Shown in pieces: positions 50,101 through 62,336 of a stretch of 64,000 bases of DNA (position 1 is the stretch's first letter; every line of letters begins with the position of its first letter). A program made the position numbers and the translations under genes. This stretch comes from Isosphaera pallida ATCC 43644 (GTDB lineage: Bacteria > Planctomycetota > Planctomycetia > Isosphaerales > Isosphaeraceae): contig NC_014962.1 in assembly GCF_000186345.1 (NCBI RefSeq), forward strand, positions 2,294,001-2,358,000. The letters run 5' to 3'. A model generated the notes under the pieces. That model was not told the origin of the DNA and searched no databases. It saw only the letters and a program-made list of their open reading frames with translations.

Positions 50101-53100
50101 TCAACGGTCGAACAGCGCATCGATCGCCGCTGGTCGGAGCGGAGCCGGCTTGATGGCGAGCGGACGAGACGTGGCGAGCGTGGCCATTGGCACCCGGCGG
50201 CGGGCGGCGGCCAGGGTCCCGGCGCTCTTGATATGGACATTGACATTGGACGGGCGGGACATAACTGGACCGGCGGAGGAGGAGTTGGTGGTCAAATTCA
50301 GGCGATGGGTCACCAGACCCAAGCCGTCCATCCGCCCGAAGACCATCCGACCATCACTCCCAGGCGCTGAACGCAGCGACCCCACTAAAACCCCGCGGCG
50401 ACCTGCCGGAGCGTTGACGATCCGCAGACGCTCTGGATCGTCCAAGTCGCTGGAGACCACCTCGAAGAGTCCGCCGTTGAGCAGGCTCACTAGCGCGCGG
50501 TCGCCGTCGCGGTCCTGAACCGTTAGGCGATCGCCCAGCGCCAAGCGGGACGCCCGCGCCACGCTGCCCAGACCGTCTCGCACCTCGACCCTCACGAACT
50601 GGTTGAGCGGCAGAGGGGCGAACGGAACCAGTCGCAAGGTGTTAGCGGCGGGGTCAAACTCGGTTCGGGTCGGCACGATCCGGTCGTCGGGGGTTCCGAA
50701 GCGGCCATCGGTCCCGGCGGTCGTCACGCTTGTCAGAGCGTTCAAGTGAGCGGCTAGCGTCGGGGCCGTCGGCCCGACCAACGCCACTTCGAACGCCGTC
50801 AGACCCACCCGGCCTCCCAGAACCCGGATGTCACTCACCCGCAACGGTGACGGTGACACCGAAGGAACCGGAGCGGGCGCGGGATTCGGCGTCACCACCA
50901 CGGGCTCGGGCATGGGAGCCGGTTCGGAAACCGCAGGCGGCGGGACAACCACGACGGGCTGATGACCAGGTGACGGGGCCGGGGTAGGCTCGAGATCGGC
51001 AGGCGGCGGGACAACCACGACGGGCTGATGACCAGGTGACGGGGCCGGGGTAGGCTCGAGATCGGCAGGCGGCGGGACAACCACGACGGGCTGATGACCA
51101 GGTGACGGGGCCGGGGTAGGGTCGAGATCGGCGGGCGGTGGGTTGGACGAACTCGCAGGCGGGTTGAGTCCCTGGAACGCGGGCGTGACGTTCAGAATCG
51201 AGACGGTCAACACACTCGGCTCGCCCAAGGTCGCGCCATTGGTAGGGTTGGAAAGGATGACCTGAAGGGTTTCGGTCGGCTCCACGACCAAATCGGGGCG
51301 AATCCCGAGCAACACGGTTTGAGTGGTCTGCCCAGCAGCGAAGGTGACAACCCCATCAATTGCCGTGAAGTCCTCGCCCTCCACGGCCGTTCCCGAGACA
51401 GTGCGGAGCCGCACGCTCACCGCGCCGTCGGACCCATTGACCCTTGCCAGGTTGATGACCAGCACGCCGGCGTCCTCGGACACGGTCACGGTATCGGTGG
51501 TGAACTGAATCGCGCCGCGTTGGGGCAGGTCGTTGTCCTCGATTAACACGGTGGCAACCACCTGGTTACCCAGGGTTGCGCCGCCCGTGGGGGTGGAGAG
51601 GATGAGTTCGAAGGTTTCGTCCCCCTCCACCAGATTGTCGTTGAGGATGGTGACGGGGACCACCTGGCGGGTGACGCCGTCGCCGAAGCGCACGACCTGG
51701 GAGACCGCCACAAAGTCGAACCCGGCCAGGGCCGTCCCGTTGCGGCTCTGAAGCGAGACGGCCACCTCGCCCGCGCTGCCGCCGATTCGTTCAAGGACGA
51801 CTTCGGCCCGACCGGCTCCCTCGGAGACTCGAAACAGCGGCGAAGCGAATTGGATCTGGCCGCGGAGCGCCGGTTGGTCGTTGTCGATGATCGTTACGAC
51901 CGCGGAGGCGGGGGAACTCAGAGTGGCTCCGCCGGTGGGGTTGACCAGCGTGAGGGTGAAGGTTTCGTTTCCTTCGATCAGTGAATCGTCGAAAATGGGG
52001 ATTGCGACGACCTGACGATCGACTCCGTTGGGGAAGAGGACCAGGCCGTTGTTGGGCACCGGGCCGTAATCTTCACCGGGGCGGGCGGAGCCGGTCGCGG
52101 CTGAGGTGGAGGAGGCCAGGAGTTGGACCGTCGCCTCGCCATCGGTGCCACCCACCCGTTCGATGGTCACCAGCAGGGGACCGGCTCCTTCGTTGATCGA
52201 CAGGATCGCGCTAGTCAATCGGAACGCGCCGCGTTGGGGGGGCGGATCGTTGTCGGCGATTGTTACCAGGAGCGAGGAGGGTTCGGCCAAGGTCGCGCCG
52301 TTGGTGGGACTGGTGAGGACCAGGGTGAAGGTCTCGTCGCCTTCGAAGAGGTTGTCGTCGATGATGGCGACCAGGAAGGTCTGCGAGGTTTCACCGGGCG
52401 CGAAGGTGAGGCTGCCGCCGACGAAGAGGAAATCGTCGTTGGGGCGGGCGGTGCCGGCGACGACGGTGTAGGAGACCGAGGCGACGCCGTCAAAGCCGTT
52501 CAGACGGTTGACCGTGATCGCCACGTTGCCCGCGTCCTCGTTGACCCGCAGCGTCGCGGCCGCAAAGGCGAAGGAGCCGGGGCGGGGTTCGGGGTCGTCG
52601 TCGAGGATCGTCAAGACGCCCGAGGAGGGGTTGCCCAGAATGGCCCCGCCGGTGGGCGAGGAGAGGGCAAAGGCCACCGTCTCGTTCCCCTCGAACACCG
52701 CATCGTCCAGAATCGGAATCCGCACGGTTCGACGGGTGACGCCGTCGCTGAAGGTAAGGACCTCGTTGACGCTAATGTAGTCCAACCCGGCGGTGGCGGT
52801 ACCGTCCAGCGTGGCGAAGACCACTGACACCGGACCGTCGGCCCCGTCGATCCGCTCGACGACCACCTCGGCGAAGCCGGCGGTTTCGTTCACCTCCAGA
52901 ACCGGGTTGGCGAGGACGAATTGACCACGACGCGCCGGGTCATTGTCCAGAATGCCCACTTCGGTAGTCGAACGTCCGCCCAAGGTGGGCCGGATTTCAG
53001 GGAAGTCCAACCCGCCTCGGGGGTCAGAAAGAACCACCCGGAAGGTCTCGGGCACGGTCCCCTCGTGAATCGCATCGTCGATGATGGGGATTTCGATAGT

Positions 53101-55242
53101 TTGACGGGTCACGCCTGGTCCAAAAACCAGGCGGCCCGAGACTGGCGTGAAGTCGAGGTTGGGGGTCGCGGTCACCCCCTGGGTGGCGAATGCGACTGAC
53201 ACTTCCAGGTCCGCGCCCTCGATCCGTTCGACCACCACGGCGATTCGCCCGGCCCCTTCGTCCACCAGTTGGGAGGATTGGGCGAATTGCAGCCGACCGA
53301 CCCGCGGCGCGGGGTCGTCGTCGATGATCGTCACCGAGGCCCGAGGCGTCGCGCCCAATCGCGCACCGCCACCGGGGTTGCTCAACACCACGTCGAAGGT
53401 TTCGTCTCCCTCAAAGACCGTGTCCTGACGGATCGGCACCCGGAAGGTCAAGCGGGTCACGAACTCGTTGAACACGAGGGTACCCGAAACCGGCTCGAAA
53501 TCCTGACCGGGGGTGGCAGTGACGCCAACGGTTTGGTAATCGACCGAGACCACGCCGTTGCCGCCGTCGCGGCGCTCGACCACGATGGTAACGAACCCGT
53601 CTCCTTCGTTGGCCGCGAATCGCTGAGCGGCGAATGAGAACCGACCCGGAGGCGGCGGCTCGTCCTCCACGATGGTCAGGGTCGCTCGGGTCAGTTCGCC
53701 CAGCACCGCGCCGCCCTGGGGTTCACTGATTGCCAGATTGAGCTGACGGTTGCCTTCGAAGCGATCGTTGTCCAACACGGGAATTGTCACCGTGGCCCTG
53801 GTCTGTCCCGGCGCGAAGGTCACCCGGGTCGAGGCGGACGCTTGGTAGTCCACGCCGTTGCGTGCGGTGCCGTCGGTGATGTTGAGCGTCACCGAGGCGG
53901 CCCCGGCTGCGCCGCGCACCCGGACCAGTTCGATCACCGCCCCGCTCCCGTTTTCGGCCACTTGGAAGGTGGTCGAACCAAATTGGATCGCGCCGCCGGG
54001 AGGCGGATCGTCGTCGCGGATCGTCACCGTGGCCCGAGGCGTGGCCAGCACCGCGCCGCCTTTGACGTTGAAGAACTCGACGAACAGGACTTCGTCCCCT
54101 TCGAAGAGGCTGTCCTGAAGGATTGGCACCACCAAGGTTTGCCGGGTGGTGCCGTCGGCGAAGCCCAAGACGCCCTCGACATGGCGGTAGTCGCGGGAAA
54201 ACTCGGCGGTCCCGGCGACGGTGCGGTAACCCACTGTGACGCTGCCCGCGGAGCCGCCCAGACGGTCCAGCGTGATCGTCACTCCACCGTCCCCCTCGCC
54301 GACGGTCAAATTGGTCGCGGCCAGGGTCAGCACACCCGCGGGTGGGGCTGGGTCGTTGTCCTGAATCACCAGGAAGCTGGTCGCGCGGATTGGGTTGATG
54401 GTCGCCCCGCCCTGGGGATTCTCTAAGGTCAAGGCGACGGTGCGGTTGGGTTCATGAAGGTCGTTGTCCCGAATTGGCACCGTCACGGTCCGTTCGGTCT
54501 GACCAGGGTTGAAGGTCAGGATCTGCGAGACCGGCTCGAAGTGGAACCCCGCCCGCGCGGTCCCCTCCGAAGCGCTGACCCGCACGCTCACCGTGCCATC
54601 GGCCCCCCCCGTGCGAACCACCCGCACCAGAGCCTGACCGGCTCCTTCCGAAACGATCTGCTCGGCCACGGTGAAGCCCAGCGCCCCGAATTGGGGAACC
54701 GGCTCGTCATCCAAGATGCTCAACGCGGCTTCGGCGAAGGGTCCTAAGGTCGCTCCCCCTTGAGGATTGCTCAGACGCAACCCTAACCACTCCGTCCCCT
54801 CGAAGACCGCATCCTGCAAAATCGGCAGATTGAAACTCTTGCGGGTTTCCCCCGGTCCAAAGGTCAGCGTGCCGCTGACCGCCTGGTAGTCCTGACCGGC
54901 GGTCGCCCGCCGCAAACTATTGCCCACCTCGGGCAGCGTGAAGGTCGCGTAGTTGACGCTCACCTCGCCCAACGACGAAAACAACCGCTCGACCGTCACC
55001 TCGAACACGCCAGCGTTTTCCGTGGTCGTCAGTTCCCGCGCGATGAAGTTCAATTCGCCCGCGAAGAAGTTCGCCGCCAGCAACCGCCGCTCCTCCAGCG
55101 TCTCCAGCTGACTCCAACGACGCATCGATCTCCTGCGCCGCTCGCTGATCCTTCGCTCCTGGGACACGGACTCCCCCGTGCGCGGCAGGTCCCACCCGTC
55201 CCGATCCTCCCCCCCTCGGGACCGCGTCGCTGGCTTGGTCAT
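50101..55242 (-). CDS. Giant Calx-beta repeat surface protein
   Basis: Protein of 1713 aa from ATG 55242 (MTKPATRSRGGEDRDG); the 16-codon extension is rejected. The N-terminus carries SQLETLEERRLLAANFF (about residues 45-60), a LEPR-XLL-type motif. Then come 11 Calx-beta repeats of about 105-115 residues, each with a pattern such as ENAG...VTVERL, VSVxY, a DD/DN calcium-type loop and EGxExFxxxLxxPxGGAxLG ending in DDDP or DND. They are followed by a Pro-rich linker with three copies of a 22-residue unit (PADLEPTPAPSPGHQPVVVV) and a C-terminal domain of about 260 residues with VRVEVRDGLGSVARASRLAL. Probably a calcium-binding adhesin-like or matrix protein at the surface. Confidence 0.9.
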   Translation of the reverse strand: MTKPATRSRGGEDRDGWDLPRTGESVSQERRISERRRRSMRRWSQLETLEERRLLAANFFAGELNFIARELTTTENAGVFEVTVERLFSSLGEVSVNYATFTLPEVGNSLRRATAGQDYQAVSGTLTFGPGETRKSFNLPILQDAVFEGTEWLGLRLSNPQGGATLGPFAEAALSILDDEPVPQFGALGFTVAEQIVSEGAGQALVRVVRTGGADGTVSVRVSASEGTARAGFHFEPVSQILTFNPGQTERTVTVPIRDNDLHEPNRTVALTLENPQGGATINPIRATSFLVIQDNDPAPPAGVLTLAATNLTVGEGDGGVTITLDRLGGSAGSVTVGYRTVAGTAEFSRDYRHVEGVLGFADGTTRQTLVVPILQDSLFEGDEVLFVEFFNVKGGAVLATPRATVTIRDDDPPPGGAIQFGSTTFQVAENGSGAVIELVRVRGAAGAASVTLNITDGTARNGVDYQASASTRVTFAPGQTRATVTIPVLDNDRFEGNRQLNLAISEPQGGAVLGELTRATLTIVEDEPPPPGRFSFAAQRFAANEGDGFVTIVVERRDGGNGVVSVDYQTVGVTATPGQDFEPVSGTLVFNEFVTRLTFRVPIRQDTVFEGDETFDVVLSNPGGGARLGATPRASVTIIDDDPAPRVGRLQFAQSSQLVDEGAGRIAVVVERIEGADLEVSVAFATQGVTATPNLDFTPVSGRLVFGPGVTRQTIEIPIIDDAIHEGTVPETFRVVLSDPRGGLDFPEIRPTLGGRSTTEVGILDNDPARRGQFVLANPVLEVNETAGFAEVVVERIDGADGPVSVVFATLDGTATAGLDYISVNEVLTFSDGVTRRTVRIPILDDAVFEGNETVAFALSSPTGGAILGNPSSGVLTILDDDPEPRPGSFAFAAATLRVNEDAGNVAITVNRLNGFDGVASVSYTVVAGTARPNDDFLFVGGSLTFAPGETSQTFLVAIIDDNLFEGDETFTLVLTSPTNGATLAEPSSLLVTIADNDPPPQRGAFRLTSAILSINEGAGPLLVTIERVGGTDGEATVQLLASSTSAATGSARPGEDYGPVPNNGLVLFPNGVDRQVVAIPIFDDSLIEGNETFTLTLVNPTGGATLSSPASAVVTIIDNDQPALRGQIQFASPLFRVSEGAGRAEVVLERIGGSAGEVAVSLQSRNGTALAGFDFVAVSQVVRFGDGVTRQVVPVTILNDNLVEGDETFELILSTPTGGATLGNQVVATVLIEDNDLPQRGAIQFTTDTVTVSEDAGVLVINLARVNGSDGAVSVRLRTVSGTAVEGEDFTAIDGVVTFAAGQTTQTVLLGIRPDLVVEPTETLQVILSNPTNGATLGEPSVLTVSILNVTPAFQGLNPPASSSNPPPADLDPTPAPSPGHQPVVVVPPPADLEPTPAPSPGHQPVVVVPPPADLEPTPAPSPGHQPVVVVPPPAVSEPAPMPEPVVVTPNPAPAPVPSVSPSPLRVSDIRVLGGRVGLTAFEVALVGPTAPTLAAHLNALTSVTTAGTDGRFGTPDDRIVPTRTEFDPAANTLRLVPFAPLPLNQFVRVEVRDGLGSVARASRLALGDRLTVQDRDGDRALVSLLNGGLFEVVSSDLDDPERLRIVNAPAGRRGVLVGSLRSAPGSDGRMVFGRMDGLGLVTHRLNLTTNSSSAGPVMSRPSNVNVHIKSAGTLAAARRRVPMATLATSRPLAIKPAPLRPAAIDALFDR
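50935..51138 (-). repeat. 66-bp tandem repeat within the Calx-beta gene
   Basis: Three head-to-tail 66-bp units (starting about 50935, 51001 and 51067) almost identical at the DNA level, differing at only one or two bases (for example GGCTCGAG versus GGGTCGAG). They encode 22-residue Pro-rich units. The near identity points to recent expansion or slippage; copy number probably varies between strains. Confidence 0.93.
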
Positions 55243-55614
55243 GGTCGGATTCCCCTCGTCGCTGTCAATCTCGCATGGTGCCGCCGTCAACCACGTCTTC
55301 CCCTCCTCTCATCCCCCCTCACGCCCGCAACCAGACGCCAACCAGGAAGTGGGCCGCCTTCAACATTCCGGGAATGGTGCCACGCCAAGGCGTTAGACTG
55401 GAAAGAATGGGAAAACGGGGAAGTTTGACAAATTGTGACGGATCGCATCGAGCCGCGTCAAGCGTCAAACATGGCGAGCTGCGCGCGAACCGCACTCTAG
55501 CTTAGGCCATGCTTGGCGATTTAGGTGAGATGGGAAATTTCGGGGAACTTTTTCGTGTAATTCGGGAAAATCATTTCGCTTTCTGAACCAAGTTGGCTTT
55601 GGCCGACATGAACT
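55243..55614. other. Intergenic region upstream of Calx-beta gene
   Basis: About 370 bases including the Calx-beta promoter region; AT-richer around 55520-55610. No gene or RNA recognised. Confidence 0.35.
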
Positions 55615-58458: not shown

Positions 58459-59961
58459 TCAAGGACGATGGGATTCCAGCCGGCCGAGACGCTGTCGGGT
58501 CGCCTGGCGCCAACGGGTCTCGAAGTGCGGCAAGGTCTCGGCGTCGAACATGGTCCGCCATAGGTCGTAACGCTCGGTCTGGGACGCGGGACGTTGCGAC
58601 CGGGTTAGGTCGATGAAGTCGCGCAGGTCGGCGGGCCGTTCCAGCCAAAGATAGTCCACCAGCGACCAGGCTTGAGCGTAACGAATCAGCGCGTGGGCGT
58701 CGGACTTCTCGAAACCCTCGTCCCGCAACAGACCAGCGAAGGGGGCGATGTCGGCGGGCGAGGCGTCCCAAGCGCGCCAAATCGCGGCACGGGCGGCGGG
58801 AATCGCTCCCACGCCGCTCCAACGACCATCCTCCACCGTCTCGAACAGCATCGCCAAGCCTTCGTGGAACCACTGAGGAAACAAGCCCGGGCTCGGCTCG
58901 AAGCCCGTCAAGTCAACAAGTTGATGGATGGTTTCATGCGCTGCCGCCGAATCGACGACCCGACGACGCTCGATCTCGGCGAGCAGACGGCGCAGCCGGG
59001 TCGCGTCGTTCACCACGATGGAGTCGCCGCCGAATGTTTCGCTTCCATCCCGACGCCCCTCGGGGGTTTCCCCGACCTTCGCGCCCCCTGCGGCGTGGGT
59101 AAAGGCGACTCGCCGGCGGGGGTCGTAATACCCTTGAGAGCCGATGAAGCGGGACGCGCCAAGCGTCTCCAGGGCGCGACGGTAGGCCGCGGCGTCCGGC
59201 AGGATGAGATGGACCGCCTTGCGTGTGGGGATTGTCACTTTGAGGTCCCAACCGGCCCAGACGCCGAGAAAGGTGGCCCCCACCCGGTCCAGCAAATCCA
59301 GACGACGGCGCGCCTCGGCGTGCCAACCGGCGGGGTGCAACACCACGAACCGCTGTCCTTCGAGACGTTCCAATCGTTGCGAGCCGCTTGACAAGGGTCC
59401 CAAGACTGCGGCGAGCGTGTCCACGACGGTTTCGTCAGTAGGTTGGGACTCCTCCTGAAACCAGGTTTCGAGAGTTCGCGCGATGCGGACGGCTGGAGGG
59501 TGGTCGGGGTCGATCCGCAGGGTTTGGGTCAACCCTTCGCCCGCCCAATCAGGACGTCCGGCTGTCAACGACCGCCACGCCCACTCGTACCAAAGTCCGG
59601 CGTCAGACTCGTCCGCCCTGGGGCGGACCCGCTCCAGAAGCTGGTCCGGGGTGGCGACTTCACGGACCTCCGCGACCAAACGGCCCGACACCTTCGCTTC
59701 AATCGAACCTGGGGCACCCCGCGGTGGCCCCTGAAGCTCCAGCCAGCCGCGCTGGGGGTCCCGCCAACGCGCCTCGATCCGAAGACGCCCACCCTCCGTG
59801 AACACCACGTCCTCGGCGTGGGCGCGGCAGGCCGCAGTCAGCGTGGTCACGATCCCGCCAAGGAGGACTCCCATCCACGCGCGACCGATTTGACGCCCAC
59901 CTGCGATCCGTGACGGGCGGGCGCAGGTGAGGTTTGGCGTCCCCCTCACCATCCCGGTCAT
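58459..59961 (-). CDS. Exported HExxH peptidase-like protein (DUF1570 type)
   Basis: Protein of 500 aa. ATG 59961 overlaps the stop of the P450-like gene in an ATGA arrangement, which supports this start; an ATG three codons later is possible. A hydrophobic segment (about 30-50, MGVLLGGIVTTLTAACRAHA) suggests export. Residues about 200-330 form the DUF1570-like core (RFVVLHPAGWHAEARRRLDLLD). The zinc motif AAHETIHQLVDL at about 375-386 gives HExxH, followed by PQWFHEGLAMLFE about 22 residues on, where Glu would be the third zinc ligand of gluzincins. Probably a periplasmic zinc peptidase or a related non-catalytic protein. Coupled to the P450-like gene. Confidence 0.8.
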   Translation of the reverse strand: MTGMVRGTPNLTCARPSRIAGGRQIGRAWMGVLLGGIVTTLTAACRAHAEDVVFTEGGRLRIEARWRDPQRGWLELQGPPRGAPGSIEAKVSGRLVAEVREVATPDQLLERVRPRADESDAGLWYEWAWRSLTAGRPDWAGEGLTQTLRIDPDHPPAVRIARTLETWFQEESQPTDETVVDTLAAVLGPLSSGSQRLERLEGQRFVVLHPAGWHAEARRRLDLLDRVGATFLGVWAGWDLKVTIPTRKAVHLILPDAAAYRRALETLGASRFIGSQGYYDPRRRVAFTHAAGGAKVGETPEGRRDGSETFGGDSIVVNDATRLRRLLAEIERRRVVDSAAAHETIHQLVDLTGFEPSPGLFPQWFHEGLAMLFETVEDGRWSGVGAIPAARAAIWRAWDASPADIAPFAGLLRDEGFEKSDAHALIRYAQAWSLVDYLWLERPADLRDFIDLTRSQRPASQTERYDLWRTMFDAETLPHFETRWRQATRQRLGRLESHRP

Positions 59962-61634
59962 CCTCGGTCTTGCCTTCCCCACGGTTCATGCCTTTCAGCA
60001 CGCGGCTGGACGCGCCAGGGAGCATCTGGCTCCAGAGATTCGGGCGCGAGCCGGAAACGGGGCGCGAGGACCATCAGAACCAGACTCGCAACGTCGGCCA
60101 GAAACTCGTCACCCAGGGTCGGCTCGCCCAAAACCTCGGGAGTCAACACCGGCAGAGGATGAGTCGAAGAGGGTGGCGCTGAAGAGGGGGCTTGCTCCGG
60201 CGTCTCCAATCCAATCAACCACCGCTCGGGCACGAATCCTTCGGGATCCGCGAACCAACGGGGATCGCGGTGGGTGAGCCAAGGGCAGATGAGCACCGTC
60301 GCGCCGTCGGCCAACCCTGCGCCTTGAGCCTGGGGCAGGGGACCACCGATCACCCGACGCGCGACCAGAACCCGGGCGGGGTGGAGGCGTCGGGCTTCAT
60401 GGACAATCGCCGCGCTCCAGGGACCGCCGGGTTCGGGAAAGCCATCGGGCTGATCGGCGGAGGACTCCACCGCCTCTGCGATGAGGTGACTTTCCAGTTC
60501 TGGCGCGAACGCCAAATGCCCCCAGGCGGCCAGAGTCGCTCCCACGATTTGGCTGACCCCGTCCAGCAGAACCGCCAGGCAACGCTCGCGGGCCGCTTCG
60601 GGACCAAGCGGGTCTTTCCTCACTGATCCGTCCGGACGGGACCAAGGACAGGGACCCTCGAATCCAAAGAGGGATCCCATCTCGAACGTCCTGGTCTGGT
60701 GGGAATCCTGAAAAGCGCCGCGGCCAAAATCAAAGCCCCAACCCAGTAGGTGGGACAACAGATCGTCGCGCGGGGTTGAAGTCGCGCGGGACCGCCGATC
60801 GATCTCGCCATCGACCGCCGAACGCCATTCCTGAGCCGCCTTGCGAATCCTCCAAGCCCGAGGCAAGATCACTGACGCGGCCCCGGCGGGAAGCAACCGT
60901 CCCCAAGAGGATGGAGACCGTTCCGACCGCGTTGAGCGACCAACGACCGCTTGGGATCGTGCACCGGGGTTGATCGTGTCGAGTCGCACCGGCTCGGCGT
61001 CGAACCAAGCTCGAACCAAGGCGGCGGAGCGGGCAAACAGTTCGATTCCTTCCACGTCGGTTTCAACACTCGCGCCCAACACGATTCGGGCGACCAGTTC
61101 CAGAGCCAGGCGGATCAGGTCGTTGACGGGGTCGGCCCGTTCGGGTCGCTCATCCCAAACGACCAGAAGCCGCCGGGTCGCCTCAAAGGCGTCGATCAAG
61201 CCCTGAGCGTGTCTGGAGGGCGTGAGAAACTCCCGACAGCGTAAACTTGCCGCCCAACCCACTGGAATCGGATCGTCGTCGGCGATTGACGACCCTGCTC
61301 CGCCTCGCCAAGCCCGCTCGATTGGTGAGGCCGCCACCCAGTCGAAATGGTGGCGATCCCGTCCTAACACGCATTCCAACGCCTCCGGCGTCGCCGCCAT
61401 GACGCAGGAGGACCATCCCCATTTGACTGGAAGGAAATCTAACGCCCAAGTTCGCGACGCCGCGACGCTGGTCGCAGCGACGACCGGAAAGTGAGGTCCA
61501 GCGCCGGTACGACCGTGACCCTGGGAAACGGACGCCCCCTCGGGGAATCGGGCACGGTTGCTTGGTTCCGCGGCAACACGCGAGACCCCGGCCTGCGGCT
61601 GCGAATGATTTGGACTCGGACCCGCCGTGGTCAT
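59958..61634 (-). CDS. Cytochrome P450-like protein lacking the haem-cysteine motif
   Basis: Protein of 558 aa from ATG 61634 with GGGAG 8 nt upstream (longer frame to 61820 rejected). The P450 fold is indicated by the K-helix VHEARRLHPARVLVARRVI (ExxR), the PERF segment DPEGFVPERWL, ATVLICPWLTHRDPRWF before it, and the L-helix GDEFLADVASLVLMVLAPRFRL. The Cys-ligand loop FxxGxRxCxG expected between PERWL and the L-helix is absent: that stretch is ETPEQAPSSAPPSSTHPLPV then LTPEVLGEPT, with no Cys. The I-helix (LLDGVSQIVGATLAAWGHLA) also lacks the usual AGxxTT. So it is a degenerate P450 relative or a non-haem derivative. Translationally coupled to the peptidase-like gene. Confidence 0.82.
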   Translation of the reverse strand: MTTAGPSPNHSQPQAGVSRVAAEPSNRARFPEGASVSQGHGRTGAGPHFPVVAATSVAASRTWALDFLPVKWGWSSCVMAATPEALECVLGRDRHHFDWVAASPIERAWRGGAGSSIADDDPIPVGWAASLRCREFLTPSRHAQGLIDAFEATRRLLVVWDERPERADPVNDLIRLALELVARIVLGASVETDVEGIELFARSAALVRAWFDAEPVRLDTINPGARSQAVVGRSTRSERSPSSWGRLLPAGAASVILPRAWRIRKAAQEWRSAVDGEIDRRSRATSTPRDDLLSHLLGWGFDFGRGAFQDSHQTRTFEMGSLFGFEGPCPWSRPDGSVRKDPLGPEAARERCLAVLLDGVSQIVGATLAAWGHLAFAPELESHLIAEAVESSADQPDGFPEPGGPWSAAIVHEARRLHPARVLVARRVIGGPLPQAQGAGLADGATVLICPWLTHRDPRWFADPEGFVPERWLIGLETPEQAPSSAPPSSTHPLPVLTPEVLGEPTLGDEFLADVASLVLMVLAPRFRLAPESLEPDAPWRVQPRAERHEPWGRQDRG

Positions 61635-62336
61635 CCTCGCACTCCCTCGCCTCGCCGGACCTCCCTTGGCCGTGGTTGAACTGGTTCGCCCAAGGCCGCG
61701 ACAGGGTACGGCCTGCTCGTCCCGCGTCAAGTCCACTCCACCACACCCAACCCAAGGGCGACGCAGAACCAAGGCCCCACGCCTTCTGACTTGAGACCGC
61801 GTTCCGGCGACGACACTCAAGCCGCTTCGTCAGAATTGCGTCAACCCCCACAATCCATTCAGCCCGAGCAATCGGGAGTCGAGTCCCGATCTTCGCGCGA
61901 TCACGGCGTTGTCGTCAGAGCGGGCAACCGATGAGGAACAACAACGTCAAGGAGTGGCGTGACGCGAAGCTGGACTCGAAACCGTGCCGAAGGGTGGGTG
62001 ATTCCTCCGTTTTTGGATGGTTTCGCGTCGGCTTCGATTGCTTCTCTCGGTCAGTCGGCGAAACACACGAACGTCATCAAGATCGTTCCGATCAACTCCG
62101 CCGACCGGACGGTTCCGGTATGGCTTGGGTCGCCCACCACGGCCGTTCTGGACCCGAGCGGTCATCGGGTGGAAAGCGATCCAAAACGATCGGGTGTACG
62201 CTTGGGCGAGGTTGAAGTCCCCTCCATCAGACCAACCACGCCCATCGATACGATCATGGTGACTTCGCCCCTCCCGATCCGTGGATGGATTGGGTGGCGT
62301 CGTGGGTGATTCAGGAATCGGCAGGAGGCCGGAACG
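61635..62336. other. Divergent intergenic region
   Basis: About 700 bases between the P450-like gene (minus) and the TolC-like gene (plus). Long spurious frames cross it on both strands, but none shows family motifs or a good start. AGGAGG at its end serves the next gene. Confidence 0.4.

Follow-up and report, generated by a model that had tools for sequence, protein, structure and literature searches.

A P450-like protein of Isosphaera pallida without the haem-ligating cysteine, a candidate haem-free pseudoenzyme

P450 homologues that lack the Cys ligand and are inactive as P450s have been described in Streptomyces and relatives, namely EryCII, DesVIII, AknT and DnrQ (PMC3391682, PMC10054333). 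EryCII and its kin stabilize and activate a glycosyltransferase (PMC3391682; AknT in PMC10054333), and where a role is proven for a haem-free P450 homologue in the literature found, it is that of a glycosyltransferase helper of this type. A P450 homologue that likewise lacks the Cys is encoded in a window of 64,000 nucleotides of the Isosphaera pallida ATCC 43644 genome (contig NC_014962.1, positions 2,294,001 to 2,358,000), the whole stretch of DNA analysed here, from whose first letter all coordinates are counted. I. pallida is a hot-spring bacterium, and a search of its genome returned this 558-aa protein as the sole P450 match, which would allow a clean test by single-gene knockout. The reading preferred here, with a probability of about 0.52, is that the protein is a haem-free pseudoenzyme of P450 fold with a binding role, one that the Isosphaera lineage would have derived from the family's normal P450.

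P450 homology and the replaced catalytic motifs

The open reading frame lies on the minus strand (59958..61634), where 558 uninterrupted codons run from an ATG at 61634 to a TGA at 59960–59958; the intact 558-aa frame of the preliminary description was thereby borne out. Upstream of this ATG the frame stays open as far as an in-frame TTG at 61820 (61635–61820, minus strand). The true start could precede ATG 61634, yet the base composition of 61635–61820 is not gene-like.

Pfam p450 (PF00067) matched residues 409–473 (E 8.9e-10, 38.4 bits against a cut-off of 22.8), the top PDB sequence match was 7wzl (CYP184A1, E 4.7e-10), and an alignment with 35 normal planctomycete P450s covered the protein over its full length, the homology starting at the N-terminal beta sheet and continuing beyond helix L. 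In this alignment E413, R416, R426, P464, P469, R471 and helix L (TLGDEFLADVASLVLMVLAPRFRL; residues 509–523, 60066..60110, minus strand, also seen in the predicted structure) are kept. The K-helix ExxR reads EARR (residues 413–416; 60387..60398, minus strand). The segment previously reported as PERF is present at residues 469–472 (60219..60230, minus strand) and reads PERW, with R471 completing the E-R-R triad (E413, R416, R471) expected of a haem-thiolate P450. Also kept are W127 and R134, aligned with the conserved C-helix Trp and Arg, and R426, the Arg after the K helix. Relative to the 35 normal relatives, 36/77 near-invariant positions are retained, as are 16 of the 28 positions that are conserved in a set of 68 diverse P450s, including all three residues of the triad. 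The earlier assignment as a P450 homologue, with ExxR and L-helix segments in order, was thus confirmed by full-length alignment.

Both catalytic motifs of the relatives are gone. At the I-helix site, where relatives have AGHETT, the protein reads DGVSQI (residues 358–363; 60546..60563, minus strand, by alignment) and departs from the A/G-G-x-D/E-T-T pattern of haem-thiolate P450s. Where the relatives have the FPFGGGPRxCIG loop, there is instead an unrelated stretch rich in Pro and Ser (residues 473–508; 60111..60218, minus strand, by alignment, frame check and predicted structure), in which Thr506 (60117–60119) occupies the position of the proximal Cys of FxxGxRxCxG. Losses cluster in these two regions, where 5 positions are kept and 16 lost, while the rest of the protein keeps 31 and loses 25 (Fisher p 0.02; 0.008 with similar residues scored as kept). 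The absence of both motifs had been reported in the preliminary description together with the claim that a normal haem-thiolate enzyme is impossible; both losses support that claim and, judged from its sequence, a haem-thiolate reaction by this protein is excluded.

Structure prediction had been proposed earlier as a check, and AlphaFold (AF2), run with an alignment of 68 relatives, returned a P450 fold (mean pLDDT 72.9, pTM 0.79, core helices about 85–96) that is partly carried by the normal P450s in that alignment. The haem-loop segments 476–479 and 493–502 were of low confidence (pLDDT <50), as were residues 1–48; the first predicted helix spans residues 50–60. When the model was compared with PDB structures, the listed matches were all P450s (top Z 32.6, rmsd 3.0, 399 residues); EryCII was absent among them, which carries no weight either way. 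A normal relative modelled as a control with the same alignment rows gave a mean pLDDT of 94.6, rising to about 97 across the Cys loop, so the unmodelled loop is a property of the P450-like protein. The model makes a P450 fold plausible for this protein and a haem pocket not. As fold and ancestry, the protein qualifies as a cytochrome P450 (PF00067), being over the curated cut-off and predicted to adopt the P450 fold.

Relatives and selection on the reading frame

The haem-loop Cys was present in all relatives read (123/123), a set made up of the top P450 match from every genome of the same family and class that yielded a locus (36 loci representing 35 distinct genes) and a further 88 loops from planctomycetes, other bacteria and archaea, with only some of the weaker second matches of the family search read for Cys. 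The preliminary description had suggested a search for Cys-less family members, of which these 123 contained none, and had held that homologues all carrying Cys would speak against it. All of those read do, and the observation stands as a loss in a single lineage on a very long branch, not as a Cys-less family. P450 matches were found in 34/45 family genomes; the normal Isosphaeraceae P450s have the Cys loop in 35/35 cases and, by a strict pattern, an AGHETT-type I-helix in all but one, the planctomycete sets having been gathered by similarity and being fair samples for I-helix conservation. A GTDB scan with the P450-like protein alone as query returned no relative. A rescan by the AGHETTA pattern is blind to motif-less relatives and returns only those with an intact I-helix, so the I-helix conservation of that set follows from the pattern itself. 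No second Cys-less copy was seen among the matches of a phylum scan of 392 genomes with at most three candidates scored per genome. On plasmids there was no DNA match to the gene, and protein matches were distant, partial and, by their annotation, mostly P450s. In another Isosphaeraceae genome (G004), short fragments of P450 genes lie on contigs C196, C222 and C510, several in all and one of them interrupted by an internal stop; they suggest decaying or assembly-split P450 genes.

Normal relatives are about 57% identical to one another, and the P450-like protein is about 28% identical to them. Its branch measures 4.05 changes per site and its placement in a free tree was without resolution; the tree grouping it with the Isosphaeraceae clade was 21 log units better and was accepted by the AU test (p-AU 0.82), from which alone membership of the family clade is taken. 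We infer vertical descent with strong acceleration. From the same identities, identity to the functional ancestor was estimated at roughly half. In neutral simulations to 50% identity with the ancestor, means of 4–13 in-frame stops arose, about 6 being typical and the spread depending on composition and start, and the probability of no stop was at most 0.03. The gene itself has no stop, and its indels relative to the relatives, about 21, are every one in frame, the loops of the protein being enlarged by insertions. Together, these two features indicate that selection held the frame open through most of its divergence, as read from a single Isosphaera sequence. The frame has outlasted far more change than neutral decay permits, in support of the earlier view that it is not an obvious pseudogene.

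The main rival, less probable than a pseudoenzyme although a serious possibility, is a late-stage relic in which the need for a P450 was lost and selection relaxed, with recency or chance accounting for a frame that is still intact. The very long branch and the loops swollen by insertions would suit a relic, as would the status of the gene as the last P450 in its genome in a family that mostly has normal ones. Codon usage points the same way. The P450-like frame alone of the six at the locus gave a positive codon-usage score, but this score was below those of 15/15 comparison genes in the window and ranked in the lowest 10% among 115 long ORFs from across the genome, which also counts against a pseudoenzyme, and GC3 was 0.67 against a median of 0.74. 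This low codon bias fits weak or relaxed constraint on the gene, and constraint on the protein is taken to be weak or recently relaxed. Neutral decay to the same divergence, however, would have left about 6 stops and broken the frame at most of the indels, and the structural triad is unbroken. If a relic, the gene would be an instructive P450 in mid-decay and a caution that a Pfam p450 annotation does not imply an enzyme.

Gene neighbourhood and the lesser alternatives

The TGA of the P450-like gene overlaps an ATG of the next gene as ATGA (59961–59958), a classic sign of translational coupling, and the coupling described earlier is thus real in form. The downstream gene (58459..59961, minus strand) encodes a zincin-like DUF1570 protein by sequence and domain match (HETIH...WFHEG); its N-terminus is signal-peptide-like, and the protein looks exported and need not be a partner of the P450-like protein. 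DUF1570 relatives occur in 42/45 family genomes. The idea that family members share this downstream peptidase found no support, the two genes lying apart in 13/13 neighbourhoods tested, and 0/13 neighbourhoods of either gene shared a second neighbour with the I. pallida locus. Farther downstream lie genes for a nucleoside-symporter-like MFS protein and an epimerase; the upstream side has an OEP/MMPL efflux pair, encoded on the opposite strand. Elsewhere in the window (50101–55290, minus strand), a 1729-aa protein carries 11 Calx-beta domains as well as a LapA-like match. Close to its C-terminus, 3.2 copies of a 66-base unit (50933–51142; 97% identity) form a Pro-rich linker, and the number of copies may vary.

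The ATGA overlap would also be expected if the frame were open merely to bring ribosomes to the coupled DUF1570 start, and a scan of the region for one promoter type found no promoter-like site, which is weak evidence in the same direction. This explanation is improbable: it would not keep E413, R416 and R471 or the P450 core, and 558 codons are long for a leader. It is slightly more doubtful still that the protein binds haem through another axial ligand, for example His492 in the replaced loop. The retained W127, R134 and R426 would be in keeping with a haem protein, but His492 lies 14 residues off the Cys position and adjoins a low-confidence stretch, the Thr506 site and its flanks hold no His, Cys, Met or Tyr, and the oxygen-activating residues of the I-helix are likewise lost. 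A sequencing error or frameshift concealing a normal haem loop can be dismissed, as a CxG loop was absent from the other two frames of the same strand across the haem-loop region, the I-helix motif was independently lost, and the I. pallida genome was sequenced at 109x Illumina plus 31x 454 coverage (PMC3072084).

Proposed role and comparison with known systems

For the haem-free pseudoenzyme, the ancestor would be a normal P450 of the family, whose thiolate loop was lost in the Isosphaera lineage along with the oxygen-activation motif. The protein would still be made and folded into a P450 core without haem and, having no iron, would act by binding. Like EryCII with its glycosyltransferase, it may serve as a scaffold or partner, or it may hold a hydrophobic ligand in the former substrate cavity. 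The ligand-binding or regulatory role suggested in the preliminary description is likewise a proposal. Against such a role, no conserved neighbour or partner was found in the 13 neighbourhoods, and the surviving identity could date from a haem-binding past. It is conceivable, though somewhat short of an even chance, that the P450 fold was here turned, independently and for a second time, to haem-free use as a binding or scaffold protein, in this case outside antibiotic glycosylation and by a species that has given up catalytic P450s. If true, the planctomycete case would mean that the P450 fold is reusable without its cofactor.

Like the normal Isosphaeraceae P450s (nearest solved CYP184A1, 7wzl; CYP97A3), the I. 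pallida protein shows homology over its whole length; unlike them, it lacks the Cys loop and AGHETT, at about 28% identity. In EryCII the N-terminal A'' helix is long and the C helix missing, whereas in the I. pallida protein residues 1–48 are unmodelled and a C-helix equivalent is predicted at residues 125–136. EryCII and DesVIII work with a glycosyltransferase, encoded by an adjacent gene, whereas the neighbours tested at the I. pallida locus (DUF1570, MFS symporter, epimerase and efflux genes) include none. By this neighbour comparison the protein would not be a member of the EryCII group and would resemble it at most in kind, as a P450 fold that binds without haem. As in EryCII, DesVIII, AknT and DnrQ, a Cys-less P450 homologue combines a best-kept C-terminal I-K-L core with a haem region that is mobile or disordered.
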